64,000 nt of DNA, taken from Bacteroidota bacterium (lineage in GTDB: Bacteria; Bacteroidota; Bacteroidia; Chitinophagales; JADIYW01). The notes beneath the pieces are model-generated. The model worked only from the letters and a program-made list of their open reading frames with translations. It had not been told where the DNA came from and ran no database searches. Positions 17,553 to 23,004 of this stretch are shown one piece after another (within the stretch, counting starts at the first letter, position 1; each line of letters starts with the position of its first letter). Location of the stretch: NCBI GenBank assembly GCA_963169645.1, contig CAUJCO010000007.1, forward strand, positions 77,803 through 141,802, written 5' to 3'. A program made the translations under genes and the position numbers.

Positions 17553-18644
17553 TTATTCTGCTAAAATATTGTTCATAATTTTTGTTTGATGTCGGATAGA
17601 TTCTTGGTGAATTGCCTCCATCATATCTTTAACAAAATCCTCTGTTAAGTCTTTTTTGGCTGCTTTTTTCACTCTATCTTGGATGATTTCGTCCCAACGA
17701 TTGGTTTGTAAAATAGTAATTCCGTTATCTCGTTTGAACTCACCTATTTTACGTGCAATGTCCATACGTTCACCCATGATTTCCAACATATAGTTGTCTA
17801 TTCTATCAATTTGAGCTCTTAGAGCGTCCAATTTATTTTCTGCATAATCATCTAATTTGCTGCTACGAACCACCAAAGAAGAAACGATTTCACCTAAACG
17901 CTCCGGTGTAACCTGTTGTGCGGCATCGCTCCAAGCATTATCCGGGTCGCGGTGAGATTCTATCATCAAACCATCAAAATCTAAGTCTAACGCTTTTTGT
18001 GATACAGAAGGAATCAATTCTCTAGAACCACAGATATGTGAAGGGTCAACGATGATAGGCATATTTGGATACAAACGACGCATTTCCACCGGCAATTCCC
18101 ACATTGGTTTATTTCTATATTTTGATTTCTCGTATGCAGAGAATCCACGATGAATAGCACCTAATTTAGTGATGCCTACTGCATTTAAGCGTTCCATACT
18201 GCCTAACCACAATTGCAAATCCGGATTAATTGGGTTTTTCACCAATACCGGAATATCCACACCGCGCAATGCATCCGCAATTTCTTGTACAGAAAACGGA
18301 TTCACAGTGGTGCGGGCACCAATCCAAAGAATATCTACACCGGCTTCTAATGATTCTTCCACGTGTTGTGCGGTAGCCACTTCTACGGTAGTTGGCTTGC
18401 CGATTTGTTTGCCGGCATTTACTAACCAAGTTAAGCCTTCTTTTCCGATACCTTCGAACATACCCGGACGTGTACGTGGTTTCCAAATTCCGGCTCTTAG
18501 CACATGAATTCCTTTGTCTGCTAAACGTTGGGCTGTTTCCAACATTTGTTCTTCTGTTTCGCAAGAACATGGACCTGAAATAATTATCGGTCTTTCAAAA
18601 TTAAAACCCCAATCTTTCAGAGGTACAATGTTTAAGTTGCTCAT
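17553..18644 (-). CDS. Bifunctional DAHP synthase / chorismate mutase
   Basis: 363 residues. Residues about 15-262 are a class I (KDO8PS-like, type I-beta) 3-deoxy-7-phosphoheptulonate synthase: SGPCSCETEEQ, RAGIWKPRTRPGMFEG, IGART, GAIHRGFS, PIIVDPSHICGS with metal and PEP/E4P ligands. Residues about 268-360 form an AroQ chorismate mutase helix bundle (LDALRAQIDRIDNYML, RMDIARKIGEFKR). It catalyses the first step of the shikimate pathway and the first step of the Phe/Tyr branch. The fused mutase usually also serves as the regulatory domain that senses prephenate. It is the last gene of the attenuated pheA operon. Confidence 0.93.
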   Translation of the reverse strand: MSNLNIVPLKDWGFNFERPIIISGPCSCETEEQMLETAQRLADKGIHVLRAGIWKPRTRPGMFEGIGKEGLTWLVNAGKQIGKPTTVEVATAQHVEESLEAGVDILWIGARTTVNPFSVQEIADALRGVDIPVLVKNPINPDLQLWLGSMERLNAVGITKLGAIHRGFSAYEKSKYRNKPMWELPVEMRRLYPNMPIIVDPSHICGSRELIPSVSQKALDLDFDGLMIESHRDPDNAWSDAAQQVTPERLGEIVSSLVVRSSKLDDYAENKLDALRAQIDRIDNYMLEIMGERMDIARKIGEFKRDNGITILQTNRWDEIIQDRVKKAAKKDLTEDFVKDMMEAIHQESIRHQTKIMNNILAE

Positions 18645-18718: not shown

Positions 18719-19015
18719 TTATTTAGGATATACACAAACGAAGTGTTCCACATTAGGTTTCGGTTCAAAATACGGATGAATAATAGTTCTCCATTGCTCA
18801 AATAAATCGGCTGTTCTAAAATCTACCGTATGGTTTTCCAAGGTTTCCCATTGTACCATCAATATAAATTTATTTTCCTGTTCCAAGCATTTTTGTAATT
18901 CATGTGTAATATAGCCTTTGGCTTGTGCAATAAATTGGGATGCTTTTACAAAATCTGCTTCAAATGTTGGCATTAATTCCGGTTTTACATATAACGTTGC
19001 TACTTCAAGAATCAT
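18719..19015 (-). CDS. Antibiotic biosynthesis monooxygenase (ABM) domain protein
   Basis: A 98-residue single ferredoxin-like ABM domain: the N-terminal strand ILEVATLYVKPE, FVKASQFIAQAKGYITHEL, and FILMVQWETLENHTVDFR with the conserved W-E-s-x-x-x-H-x-x-h-r pattern. Such proteins are dimeric quinol or anthrone oxygenases, or heme-related enzymes, without a cofactor. It sits inside the aromatic amino acid operon, 5 bp after tyrA and 74 bp before aroG; a role in quinone or phenol chemistry is possible but not shown. Confidence 0.8.
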   Translation of the reverse strand: MILEVATLYVKPELMPTFEADFVKASQFIAQAKGYITHELQKCLEQENKFILMVQWETLENHTVDFRTADLFEQWRTIIHPYFEPKPNVEHFVCVYPK

Positions 19016-19020
19016 GTTAA

Positions 19021-19863
19021 TTATTTTAAAATTTTACGTATTTCATTTGCTTCACGCATTAAATCTAACAACTCTTCATTTTTATTTTTATTGATTAAAT
19101 TTCTAAAATGATAGATTTTTTCTATATATGTATCCATTACTTCTAATAAGTAATGTTTGTTTTGTTGGAAAATAGGTGCCCACATTTCAGGTGAACTTTT
19201 CGCCAAGCGAACAGTGCTTTCAAAACCACCGCCGGCCATTTCCAAAATAGCAGCTTCATCTTTTTCTTTTTCTAAAACAGTAGCTGCTAATACAAACGAG
19301 CTGATATGTGAAATATGTGAAATATATGCTGCGTGCATATCATGTTGATGTGCATCCATATATTTCATTTTCATGCCTAATGTTTGGTATAATTTTTCAA
19401 CTAAAACTAAAGCATCAGCAGCACTCTTTTCTTTATCACAAATAATACAGATTTTATCTTTAAACAACCCTTGAATAGCGGCTTGTGGCCCGCTGTTTTC
19501 CGTTCCTGCCATAGGATGCGAAGCTACATATCTATTTCTGTTGGGATGGTCTTTAATGGCATCTATAATTATTCCTTTAGTAGAGCCCATATCCGTTACT
19601 ACTTGATGTGGTTTTATTCTATCTAAAATAAATTTCAATTCCTCAATCAATACATTTACAGGCACTGTTAACACCAATAAATCTGCATGTTCTAAGGCTT
19701 CTTCTTTGGTAATAATTTTATCTACTAAGCCTAATGACAATGCGGTTTCATTCGTTTTTGCACTTCTACCTACACCATATATTTCTGTACAGAATTCTGA
19801 TGCTCTCAAATCTTTTGCTACTGAGCCACCAATTAATCCAATACCGAAAATTGCTACTTTCAT
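19021..19863 (-). CDS. tyrA: Prephenate dehydrogenase
   Basis: 280 residues. The N-terminal Rossmann fold has GIGLIGGSVA (7-16), then DMGSTKG and SHPMAGTENSGP with the catalytic His of the TyrA family, and a helical dimerisation domain (ISHISHISSFVLAA, AGGGFESTVRLAKSSPEMWAPIF). It oxidatively decarboxylates prephenate to 4-hydroxyphenylpyruvate using NAD(P). No ACT or chorismate mutase domain is fused; the mutase is on the DAHP synthase of the same operon. The gene begins 2 bp after the aminotransferase stop, suggesting coupled translation. Confidence 0.95.
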   Translation of the reverse strand: MKVAIFGIGLIGGSVAKDLRASEFCTEIYGVGRSAKTNETALSLGLVDKIITKEEALEHADLLVLTVPVNVLIEELKFILDRIKPHQVVTDMGSTKGIIIDAIKDHPNRNRYVASHPMAGTENSGPQAAIQGLFKDKICIICDKEKSAADALVLVEKLYQTLGMKMKYMDAHQHDMHAAYISHISHISSFVLAATVLEKEKDEAAILEMAGGGFESTVRLAKSSPEMWAPIFQQNKHYLLEVMDTYIEKIYHFRNLINKNKNEELLDLMREANEIRKILK

Positions 19864-19865
19864 GT

Positions 19866-21044
19866 TTAATTTTTTGTATTTAATTTTTCTATACGTTGCA
19901 ATGCTTCTTTTAAATCAGCTTCCGGACTACACAATGAAATGCGGATAAAACGCTCACCATTGCTTCCAAAAATAAAACCCGGTGTAATAAACACATCTGC
20001 TTTGTGTAATATTTTTTCTGTTAATTCTTCCACATTTTGGTATGTATCCGGAATTTTTGCCCACAAAAACATCCCGATTTGTGTGCTGTCGTACACACAG
20101 TGTAATGCATCCATAATAGCGTACGCAAACTTTCTGCGTTTTTTATATTCTTCGTTTCTTTGGGCATGCCAATTTGCATCATTGGAAAGTGCAGCTATTG
20201 CCGCTTCTTGCACCGGCAAATACATTCCGGAATCTACATTGCTTTTTACTTTTAATACCGTATCAATATATTCTTTTGCTCCGGCAATTAAACCAACACG
20301 AGCACCGGCTAAATTGTGAGATTTACTCAACGAGTTCAATTCCAAACACACCTCATTAGCACCTGCAATTTGTAAAATAGAAACCGGCTTTCCTTCGTTT
20401 AAAACCAAACTATACGGATTATCATTTACAACAAGAATTTGGTATTTACGAGCTATCTCAATAATCGTTTTAAAAATAGTTTCGTTGCCACTTGCTCCGG
20501 TTGGCATATTCGGATAATTAATCCAAATTAATTTTGCAGCTTCTAATGTTTGTTCATCAATCGATGAAAAATCGGGTGCCCAATTGTTTTTCTCATCTAA
20601 TGCATAATGCACCGGTGTGGCACCTGCTAAGTAAGTTGCTGAAGTGTAGGTTGGATAGCCCGGATTGGGAACTAATACCACATCACCCGGATTTAAGAAT
20701 GCATTAGATATATGTGATATACCTTCTTTAGAACCCAACAACGGCAAGATTTCTGTTTCCGGATTTAAAGTAACTCCATACGTAGTATTATACCAATCAC
20801 TCATAGCTTTGCGCAATGCCGGAATACCGATATAACTTTGATATCCATGATTTTTTATATTGTCAGCAGCTGTTTTTAAGGCTTGTATGGTATTATCAGA
20901 TGGAGCTTGGTCCGGATTTCCGATACCTAAATTAATAATCGGTTTCCCTGCTGCACGTAATTGTACAATTTGTTTCAACTTCATACTAAAATAGTATTCA
21001 TTGATATGTTGTAATTTATTGGCTGCTTCAATTATCATTTTCAT
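19866..21044 (-). CDS. PLP-dependent class I/II aminotransferase, probably aromatic
   Basis: 392 residues, fold-type I aminotransferase: GIGNPDQAPS, NPGYPTY, NYPNMPTGA, NDNPYS and the Schiff-base Lys241 in SLSKSHNLAGARVG, with the phosphate-binding Arg (AGARVG). It resembles the DapL/AspC-like group found in Bacteroidota. Its place between pheA and tyrA implies that it transaminates phenylpyruvate and 4-hydroxyphenylpyruvate to Phe and Tyr; that assignment rests on context. The start may be Met1 or Met3. It lies 25 bp behind pheA. Confidence 0.88.
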   Translation of the reverse strand: MKMIIEAANKLQHINEYYFSMKLKQIVQLRAAGKPIINLGIGNPDQAPSDNTIQALKTAADNIKNHGYQSYIGIPALRKAMSDWYNTTYGVTLNPETEILPLLGSKEGISHISNAFLNPGDVVLVPNPGYPTYTSATYLAGATPVHYALDEKNNWAPDFSSIDEQTLEAAKLIWINYPNMPTGASGNETIFKTIIEIARKYQILVVNDNPYSLVLNEGKPVSILQIAGANEVCLELNSLSKSHNLAGARVGLIAGAKEYIDTVLKVKSNVDSGMYLPVQEAAIAALSNDANWHAQRNEEYKKRRKFAYAIMDALHCVYDSTQIGMFLWAKIPDTYQNVEELTEKILHKADVFITPGFIFGSNGERFIRISLCSPEADLKEALQRIEKLNTKN

Positions 21045-21069: not shown

Positions 21070-21906
21070 TTAGGATAATTTTATTCCTTGTTTGTATTCT
21101 CCTAAAATTTTTAATTCGGTTGTAAATGGTTCAATCATTTGAATCATTTTTCGATATACTGCAACATCATCAAATTCTAAATCTGCATACATATAATATT
21201 GCCACTCTTGCCCTATCACAGGTAAGGATTGAATTTTTGTAAGATTGATATTATGCTCTCCGATAATGGTTAAAACTTTTGCCAAACTGCCCGGTGTATG
21301 GTGTGCTCTAAAAGAGATAGATGCTTTATTGATGATATCCGGTTGATATTCGGAATGTAATGATTTAGACAAAATTAAAAAGCGTGTAAAATTGCGTTTA
21401 TTGTCGTGAATATCGGCAGCCAAAATATCTAAATTGTATAATTCTGCTGCACGTTTACTGGCAATTGCTGCTCTATTTTTTATGTTGTTTTGTCTTATTT
21501 CTTTTGCACTCAATGCTGTATCATGCGATTCAATTAATTGAATATTCGCATGTTTTTCAAAGAAAAGTTGGCATTGCAATAAAGCCATCGGATGTGTATG
21601 CACTTCAAAAATAGTATCTATAGTTTGATTCGGCAACGCCATTAAGTTCATTTCTATTCGCAAATACACTTCTCCGATAATGTGTAATTTAGAATTTCGG
21701 AGATGTGCGTAATTAGGTAATATAGAACCCGCTAATGTATTTTCAATTGCACAAACAGCATAGTCTGCACCATCTTTTTTCATTACATCAAATAACTTTG
21801 TAAATGAGGCACACTCCACAGTTTTTATATCTTTTCCAAAAAAATTAAGTGCAACAATCTCGTGGAAAGAAGCTTCAAATCCTTGTATAGCAATCTTTGG
21901 TTTCAT
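21070..21906 (-). CDS. pheA: Prephenate dehydratase with ACT domain
   Basis: The start is set at the ATG at 21906 (MKPKIAIQGFEASFHE), the normal N-terminus; the longer frame runs into the leader. The 278 residues comprise the dehydratase lobes (AIENTLAGSI, the NFTRFLIL motif with the catalytic Thr-Arg-Phe) to about residue 185 and a C-terminal ACT domain (HHTPGSLAKVLTIIGEHNINLTKI). The ACT loop that reads ESRP in many phenylalanine-inhibited enzymes is QSLP here, so inhibition may differ. It converts prephenate to phenylpyruvate. It is the first gene of the five-gene operon and is controlled by the attenuator upstream. Confidence 0.95.
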   Translation of the reverse strand: MKPKIAIQGFEASFHEIVALNFFGKDIKTVECASFTKLFDVMKKDGADYAVCAIENTLAGSILPNYAHLRNSKLHIIGEVYLRIEMNLMALPNQTIDTIFEVHTHPMALLQCQLFFEKHANIQLIESHDTALSAKEIRQNNIKNRAAIASKRAAELYNLDILAADIHDNKRNFTRFLILSKSLHSEYQPDIINKASISFRAHHTPGSLAKVLTIIGEHNINLTKIQSLPVIGQEWQYYMYADLEFDDVAVYRKMIQMIEPFTTELKILGEYKQGIKLS

Positions 21907-21927: not shown

Positions 21928-21959
21928 AAAAAAAAAGTCTCGATACCAATCGAGACTTT
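21928..21959 (-). terminator. Attenuator terminator (3:4 hairpin) in the pheA leader
   Basis: On the minus strand AAAGTCTCGA, loop TTGGTA, TCGAGACTTT, then a T run. It lies between the leader peptide and pheA, with no gene ending before it in this orientation, so its only sensible role is premature termination of the leader RNA. Confidence 0.88.
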
Positions 21960-21993
21960 ATACTTTATATACATTACGGTAGTATTCGTCTCG
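21951..21993 (-). promoter_or_regulatory. Antiterminator (2:3 pairing) of the pheA attenuator
   Basis: CGAGAC (21993-21988) is complementary to GTCTCG (21956-21951), the 5' arm of the terminator, and ATACT (21985-21981) to AGTAT (21964-21960), giving an 11-bp two-part stem that excludes the terminator. A competing 1:2 pairing TCGTT/AACGA (22004-21991) lies over the last leader codons. The three pairings are mutually exclusive, as in classical attenuators. Confidence 0.82.
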
Positions 21994-21994
21994 T

Positions 21995-22039
21995 TTATGA
22001 ACGAAAAAAATAATAACCGTAAAAATATCCTTTAATCAT
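21995..22039 (-). CDS. Phe/Tyr leader peptide MIKGYFYGYYFFRS
   Basis: A 14-codon frame (ATG at 22039, TAA at 21997-21995) in which residues 5, 6, 7, 9, 10, 11 and 12 are Tyr or Phe, four Tyr and three Phe. A ribosome stalled on these codons for lack of charged tRNA-Tyr or tRNA-Phe would leave region 2 (CGAGAC, starting one base after the stop) free to form the antiterminator, whereas a ribosome that reaches the stop would cover it and let the terminator form. No Shine-Dalgarno is seen; a 7-base near-match to the -7 box (TAATTTG, 22050-22044) ends four bases before the ATG, so the message may be leaderless. Confidence 0.85.
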   Translation of the reverse strand: MIKGYFYGYYFFRS

Positions 22040-22179
22040 GTTACAAATTAAAAAAGAATTTGTTTAAAATACAACGATTTCAATATTAATTCATAGTTAA
22101 GGTAAAAAGTATCGCTCTTTTTTTTTGGAAATATGAATTCATCTTATAAAATTGCACTTCTTATTTTTTTTAGAAACGT

Positions 22180-23004
22180 ATGATACAAAAAGAATCGAAA
22201 TTATCTTATTGTGACACAAAATATCCGGTTATTTTGGTAAGTGGATTAGGTTTCCAAGATAGAAATCGATTGTTACATTATTGGGGAAATATTCCGGATT
22301 ATTTAAAACAACACGGCTGCGATGTATATACAGCAAAACAAGATGCTTTCATGTCTATTCCGGACAATGCCATCAAATTAAAATATCGGATATTAGATAT
22401 TTTAGAAAGCACTAAAAAGAAAAAAATAAATATTATTGGTCATTCCAAAGGCGGTTTAGAAGGTCGTTATTTAATCAGCCGACTAGGAATGGACGATCAT
22501 GTTTCCAGCCTTACCACCTTAGGCACACCTCATCAAGGAACGCACTTAGCAGATATTGTAGTGGGAAAATTACCTTTGCCAAAATTTGCCACGGCACGTT
22601 TGGTGAATTTATATGCAACCCTAATTGGCGATAAACGGCCGGATAGTTTACGCTCCGTGGTGCAGATGACGATAGACGGCATGAAACAATTTAACGATGA
22701 AGTGCCGGATTCTTCCAAAGTATATTATCAAAGTTATGCAAGCCATGTCAACAAAGAATATCCGAATATAATTTGGAAAACAATGGCATATATTATCAAA
22801 GAATACGAAGGAAAAAATGATGGAATGGTCGGCGTTGAATCCAGTAAATGGGGCAATTATCGTGGCATCATGCTTTCGAGTGATGCACCTTCTGTCAGCC
22901 ACGGCGACATGGTTGGATTGACGCAATTTTTTGGAAATACGAAATTTGATGCGAAAGCTTATATTGCTGATATTATCCACGATTTAAAAGAAATGAATCA
23001 TTAA
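22180..23004 (+). CDS. Triacylglycerol lipase/esterase-like alpha/beta hydrolase
   Basis: 274 residues resembling Pseudomonas/Burkholderia family I lipases and PGAP1-like esterases: the N-terminal YPVILVSGLGFQDR oxyanion region, YLKQHGCDVY, nucleophile elbow GHSKGG with Ser89, the diagnostic TTLGTPHQGTHLAD, and a late SHGDMVG that supplies His. The first oxyanion residue is Ser (VSG) where the family has His (VHG), a visible deviation. No signal peptide is present, so it is cytoplasmic unless exported by another route. It is transcribed divergently from the pheA leader; a weak -7 box (TAAAATTG, 22147) lies upstream. Confidence 0.8.
   Translation: MIQKESKLSYCDTKYPVILVSGLGFQDRNRLLHYWGNIPDYLKQHGCDVYTAKQDAFMSIPDNAIKLKYRILDILESTKKKKINIIGHSKGGLEGRYLISRLGMDDHVSSLTTLGTPHQGTHLADIVVGKLPLPKFATARLVNLYATLIGDKRPDSLRSVVQMTIDGMKQFNDEVPDSSKVYYQSYASHVNKEYPNIIWKTMAYIIKEYEGKNDGMVGVESSKWGNYRGIMLSSDAPSVSHGDMVGLTQFFGNTKFDAKAYIADIIHDLKEMNH

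Follow-up and report, generated by a model that had tools for sequence, protein, structure and literature searches.

A putative Phe/Tyr leader-peptide attenuator upstream of the pheA-tyrA operon in Bacteroidia

The window analysed here, a 64,000-nt stretch of DNA from a member of the order Chitinophagales (Bacteroidota), carries on its minus strand a five-gene operon whose products make exactly Phe and Tyr. The first gene, pheA (21070–21906), encodes a prephenate dehydratase with an ACT domain (PF00800, E 2.3e-56; PF01842). It is followed by the gene for a class I/II aminotransferase (19866–21044; PF00155), by context a probable aromatic aminotransferase, which adjoins pheA in 10 of 11 relatives. 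Next come tyrA, encoding prephenate dehydrogenase (19021–19863; PF02153/PF20463, and NF006307 above its cut-off), a gene for a 98-aa ABM-domain protein (18719–19015; PF03992), detected in the operon of one of the 11 relatives (L001), and aroG/chorismate mutase, which encodes a DAHP synthase fused to a type II chorismate mutase (17553–18644; PF00793 and PF01817). An earlier reading of this DNA from the letters alone (hereafter, the sequence-only reading) had named these five genes, and Pfam confirms all of them.

Directly before pheA, on the same strand, lies a complete attenuator arrangement. A leader frame at 21995–22039 starts with ATG at 22039, ends with TAA at 21997–21995 and encodes the peptide MIKGYFYGYYFFRS. 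Its codons read ATG ATT AAA GGA TAT TTT TAC GGT TAT TAT TTT TTT CGT TCA TAA; seven of the 14 are aromatic, four for Tyr and three for Phe, and these are the candidate control codons (Tyr5, Phe6, Tyr7, Tyr9, Tyr10, Phe11 and Phe12). A single base, 21994, separates the stop codon from the hexamer CGAGAC (21993–21988). Past the stop codon, CGAGACgaATACT (21993–21981), ACCGTAA (21980–21974) and AGTATaaaGTCTCG (21964–21951) follow in that order, and then the remainder of an intrinsic terminator. The terminator hairpin spans 21934–21959 and has the form AAAGTCTCGAT-TGGT-ATCGAGACTTT, with a run of nine T at 21928–21936; 21 nt lie between the end of this run (21928) and the pheA ATG (21906). The window carries a single such leader-plus-terminator unit. 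The 14-codon frame with its four Tyr and three Phe codons, the one-base gap to CGAGAC and the terminator with its T run had all been pointed out by the sequence-only reading, and each was found as described.

A probable promoter of the Bacteroidota type can be recognised by its match to the consensus. The -7 element, TTAATTTG (22044–22051), departs from TAnnTTTG at one position and lies 4 nt before the leader ATG, and a -33 element, TTG (22072–22074), lies 20 nt upstream of this -7-like box. The same layout recurs in relatives L013–L016. The distance between the leader ATG and the -7 box, whether TAnnTTTG exactly or close to it, is 4–8 nt in the window's genus as well as in many f21 genomes; most other families have about 15–30 nt there. 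Since transcription in Bacteroidota starts a few nucleotides past the -7 box, a gap of 4 nt indicates that the window's leader message is probably leaderless or nearly so. More broadly, the short gap implies leaderless leader mRNAs in two families, as judged from promoter spacing. Few messages in the phylum have a very short 5′ UTR: in Bacteroides thetaiotaomicron, about 3.7% are under 10 nt (PMC7366714), and in Flavobacterium psychrophilum, 5.5% are leaderless (PMC9723704).

The RNA of this region is predicted to fold strongly. The folding z-score is -4.9 for a 141-nt region and -5.3 for the terminator alone (-14.2 kcal/mol). The terminator pairs regions 3 and 4. Its 5′ arm shares the strand GTCTCG with region 3 of a competing antiterminator (AGTAT-AAA-GTCTCG, 21951–21964), whose 5′ arm is region 2 (CGAGAC-GA-ATACT, 21981–21993); here CGAGAC is complementary to GTCTCG and, on the minus strand, ATACT (21985–21981) to AGTAT (21964–21960). 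A third helix, the 1:2 hairpin, has an inner part made of TCGTT (22000–22004) and AACGA (21991–21995), the latter overlapping the antiterminator 5′ arm. All three pairings (CGAGAC/GTCTCG, ATACT/AGTAT and TCGTT/AACGA) lie at the positions that the sequence-only reading had claimed for them. Its account of the 1:2 hairpin was right about TCGTT/AACGA and missed the outer part, a 7-bp helix that closes the hairpin and is seen both in the fold and in covariation; this helix joins the region 1 arm, TTACGGT (22016–22022), to the distal arm of region 2, ACCGTAA (21980–21974). The 1:2, 2:3 and 3:4 helices are mutually exclusive. When sub-segments are folded, the terminator forms once the leader is masked up to its stop codon. 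With the first ten codons masked and the terminator 3′ arm not yet made, the antiterminator forms instead, region 2 pairing with 21964–21951.

These elements suggest how the operon could be controlled. Transcription would start at the leader ATG or just before it. With both tRNAs charged, the ribosome would read past the aromatic codons, reach the stop codon and cover CGAGAC, thereby blocking the antiterminator; GTCTCG would then pair with the downstream CGAGAC, and RNA polymerase would stop at the U run (21936–21928). If Phe or Tyr were short, the ribosome would stall on any of the seven Phe/Tyr codons, breaking the 1:2 hairpin; CGAGACgaATACT, lying immediately beyond the ribosome's leading edge, would stay unpaired. 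The free strand would pair with AGTATaaaGTCTCG, pre-empting the terminator and allowing the operon to be transcribed. Without translation, the 1:2 hairpin would form and termination would prevail. We are strongly persuaded that the element is a classical ribosome-mediated transcription attenuator of this kind, which would sense Phe-tRNA and Tyr-tRNA and control the pheA-aminotransferase-tyrA-ABM-aroG/chorismate mutase operon. This reading draws on the elements themselves and on their conservation, covariation and spacing, from which the promoter position, termination, leader translation and the response to Phe and Tyr are predicted.

Short aromatic-rich frames can occur by chance in a region as AT-rich as this one, and the arrangement might be a fortuitous frame beside a constitutive terminator that serves an upstream transcription unit. 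The upstream gene (22180–23004), however, is divergent, so that there is no upstream transcript needing termination. To gauge conservation and the chance level, pheA homologues were gathered from the family, the order and the phylum, and their upstream DNA was examined; one set of these relatives is mostly titled Chitinophagales or Bacteroidota MAGs. A scripted search for a short FY-rich frame followed by a U-run terminator found 135 units in 117 of the 158 sampled pheA loci, against two units in 790 dinucleotide-shuffled copies. Within the window's family, all 10 members that have pheA keep the Phe/Tyr leader and the terminator. By family label, the unit is present in 38 of 41 loci in f21, which we take to be Chitinophagaceae, 16 of 16 in f19, 18 of 18 in f25 (presumably Flavobacteriaceae) and 7 of 7 in f23. 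Frame, terminator and antiterminator are kept together across order and class, and conservation and covariation refute the fortuitous frame with a constitutive terminator, to which we give practically no credence.

Loci without the unit are many elsewhere in the phylum and few inside the class. It is absent from the upstream DNA of 20 of 20 loci with a distant pheA from outside the class, and none was found at the divergent pheA loci of f24 and f30, both inside the class. It does occur outside the class at three loci whose pheA is unusually close (49–51% identity; L110 in f40, L113 in f55 and L138 in f37), which suggests that operon and attenuator travel together. A MAG labelled Pyrinomonadaceae (Acidobacteriota; L006) contains pheA (64% identity), tyrA and aroG/chorismate mutase and has, at -240 to -80 upstream of pheA, the aromatic leader MNLTPNNKNFNTVNAFGFFFGYFGYYFKLPKRRF together with a hairpin that resembles a terminator; this case reflects either horizontal transfer or a mis-binned contig. 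A genome of the window's own genus (G001, 100% complete) gave no match for pheA or hisG and does have ilvD; loss of some amino-acid pathways is possible there.

Conservation extends to the alternative helices. Helices were compared one locus at a time, not along alignment columns, because MAFFT put the antiterminator arm of the more divergent members in the wrong place. Within the window's family, the triple CGAGAC/GTCTCG/CGAGAC that underlies the 2:3 and 3:4 helices changes to CGGGAC/GTCCCG/CGGGAC with pairing kept, and both helices are preserved in 10 of 10 members despite sequence change. In L016, the shared strand is still GTCTCG and both competing strands are now CGGGAC. The 1:2 helix changes as well: TACGGT/ACCGTA becomes TATAGC/GCTAT in L018, L020 and L021, along with a Gly-to-Ser codon change, and TTACGG/CTGTAA in L014 becomes CTACGG/CTGTAG in L015, compensatory changes in both cases. 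In L017, the 1:2 hairpin is mostly lost. The expectation that Tyr/Phe codons and both pairings persist despite sequence drift was borne out within the family, across the order and in a large part of the class, and with all parts present, kept together in relatives and joined by covarying helices, the attenuator proposed by the sequence-only reading is supported.

In each unit, the segment past the last aromatic codon was also tested for pairing with the terminator 5′ arm, with dinucleotide shuffles as controls. The antiterminator duplex was better than the shuffles (p<0.05) in 85% of the 135 units, with a median energy of -14.2 versus -6.7 kcal/mol in shuffles. For the 1:2 pairing, p<0.05 was reached in only 30% of the 135 units, which is significant overall. 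The window's own 1:2 pairing is no better than shuffles (p = 0.22), so support for this hairpin comes from comparison with relatives.

The spacing of the antiterminator is informative about what controls it. In the window, its arm starts 10 nt past the last Phe codon, and across the 135 units the best antiterminator arm begins 6–16 nt past the last aromatic codon in 94%, versus 23% when shuffled. This distance fits the footprint of a ribosome held up at a codon whose charged tRNA is scarce. Many relatives have a frame that runs on beyond the antiterminator arm, which means that the position of the arm is set by the control codons and not by the stop codon. Structure and a terminator, conserved upstream of biosynthetic genes, might also point to a metabolite-binding riboswitch or a T-box, sensing Phe and Tyr directly or via tRNA, with the small frame incidental. 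But the in-frame Phe/Tyr codons are conserved, and spacing tied to the last of them argues against a free riboswitch. In addition, the family alignment has no long conserved unpaired block outside the coding part, the pheA upstream region has no Rfam match at gathering score, and no T-box was matched in Rfam scans at either gathering or relaxed score. We regard a riboswitch or T-box as extremely improbable.

Turning to the amino acids sensed, at least two Phe and at least two Tyr codons are present in 134 of the 135 leaders, with a mean Tyr share of 42%. Mixed codon content of this kind supports joint sensing of tRNA-Phe and tRNA-Tyr, as the sequence-only reading had proposed, and joint sensing suits an operon that holds both pheA and tyrA. 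Trp codons occur in 28% of leaders and are regular in the upstream leader of tandem g90 loci. It could also be imagined that the aromatic peptide itself arrests the ribosome during its synthesis, perhaps jointly with free Phe or Tyr, in the manner of TnaC or Erm leaders, since close relatives conserve its aromatic part, YGYYFF. Among relatives generally, however, residue order, number and flanks vary freely (MIKGYFYGYYFFRS, MNSVFFYSYYFYL, MRQTITNTFFYFFFYYFNQSSRVVFVKA), and what is kept is the density of Phe/Tyr codons; moreover, biosynthetic genes are expected to respond to the lack of an amino acid, not to its presence. Peptide-mediated arrest is therefore a very unlikely explanation.

Whether the leader also, or even mainly, acts through Rho-dependent or translational control of pheA is a question raised by hisG in the same genomes. 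There, the search turned up a His-rich leader with a hairpin around the stop codon but not an intrinsic terminator, and so another read-out may exist. At pheA, by contrast, a strong U-run terminator is present in nearly every leader-bearing relative, and we consider such control of pheA unlikely, though less so than peptide arrest. The His-rich leader frames upstream of hisG (MTISFLAAFHSIHHSV, MLFSAIHHIAHLHHSK, MRIIFFLASHFTHHSK) were seen in L199, L193–L197, L201 and L202; in L199, the window's own genome, the leader lies at -153 to -102 before hisG. A CACTCC-GGAGTG hairpin around the stop codon of the His leader is conserved in the window's genus, and no U-run terminator was found for these leaders, which may possibly be read out differently, by a translational or Rho-dependent route. 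Upstream of ilvD, no terminator-bearing branched-chain leader was found.

How does the element compare with known systems? In E. coli, the pheL leader has Phe control codons and no Tyr control codons. The pheL/pheA attenuator resembles the present one: upstream of pheA it too has a leader peptide with control codons, an intrinsic terminator and alternative helices (1:2, 2:3 and 3:4). Unlike pheL, the leader described here mixes Phe and Tyr codons, and tyrA lies within the same operon. Leaderless trpL leaders, whose peptide is translated from or near the RNA 5′ end, occur in Actinobacteria and Sinorhizobium. They concern another amino acid and other phyla, and the leaderless start proposed here is deduced from promoter spacing. 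At a relaxed threshold, the Rfam family Phe_leader (RF01859) gave 25.8 bits over 21928–22032. This is no evidence of membership: the family's gathering score is 55, and plainly unrelated families reached comparable or better values in the same search (MicC, for one, 34.8 bits). Bacteroid-trp RNA, which is located upstream of trp genes, was matched neither at gathering score nor in the relaxed scan to E 5. It is a cis-regulatory candidate in Bacteroidetes (RF01692; Weinberg 2010, PMC2864571).

The sequence-only reading had left open whether the element was already described in this lineage, and the answer is partly. In F. psychrophilum, pheA has a transcribed 5′ region that is structured, lacks an Rfam match and is conserved in Flavobacteriaceae, and there are clues of leader-peptide attenuation upstream of amino-acid operons (PMC9723704). 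Because 18 of 18 loci in f25 carry the unit, the element in that family is probably the same as the one described here. The main text of that paper gives no explicit account of Phe/Tyr codons, of alternative pairings, of the spread through the class or of tandem copies. Our search of mainly open-access literature found no paper on a Phe/Tyr leader across Bacteroidia or on its tandem form. The mechanism is textbook; the window's element is very well supported, widespread and missing from Rfam.

Finally, two complete Phe/Tyr leader-plus-terminator units stand in series before pheA at 18 loci (L025, L031, L032, L035, L037, L039, L043, L045, L047, L049, L078, L079, L081, L085, L094, L096, L104 and L109). 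Additional tandems were recognised by eye in L033, L036, L042, L116, L120 and L155, in f29 and other families. For example, L031 reads, from -348 to -60 of pheA, MNKQTTFGFFGFYYFWYQE - terminator - MLQPATSNYFFYYFSYFFYAKKQGTRLQ - terminator - pheA. A perfect TAnnTTTG with TTG at the right distance precedes the first unit in 18 of 18 loci and the second in 0 of 18, from which it follows that both units are very probably on a single transcript. Recent duplication was considered as an origin and is not supported, units of the same locus being hardly more alike than first and second units across loci; on this sequence comparison, the tandem arrangement would be old or have arisen independently. Among described systems, mgtCBR of Salmonella comes nearest: a single transcript there has two leader frames with attenuation, sensing proline and ATP, and its authors termed the tandem attenuators singular (PMC3641672). 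Unlike mgtCBR, with its two different signals, both units here carry Phe/Tyr codons and U-run terminators.

Taken together, the comparisons incline us, by a modest degree, to the view that this is an ancient, class-wide element of Bacteroidia in which one ribosome senses tRNA-Phe and tRNA-Tyr jointly for both branches of the pathway, leaderless in some lineages and tandem in at least three. If this is true, polymerase at the tandem loci passes two independent starvation checks, and such a cascade could respond more steeply than a single attenuator. The tandem form, if confirmed, would be an unusual case of two ribosome-mediated attenuators that answer to the same signal one after the other, and a natural setting in which to learn how attenuators act together. 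A leaderless start is relevant to the way in which ribosome and polymerase are synchronised in a short leader, in bacteria mostly without Shine-Dalgarno sequences. For the class Bacteroidia, the element provides a concrete, testable Phe/Tyr regulator that probably controls the pathway in many species.
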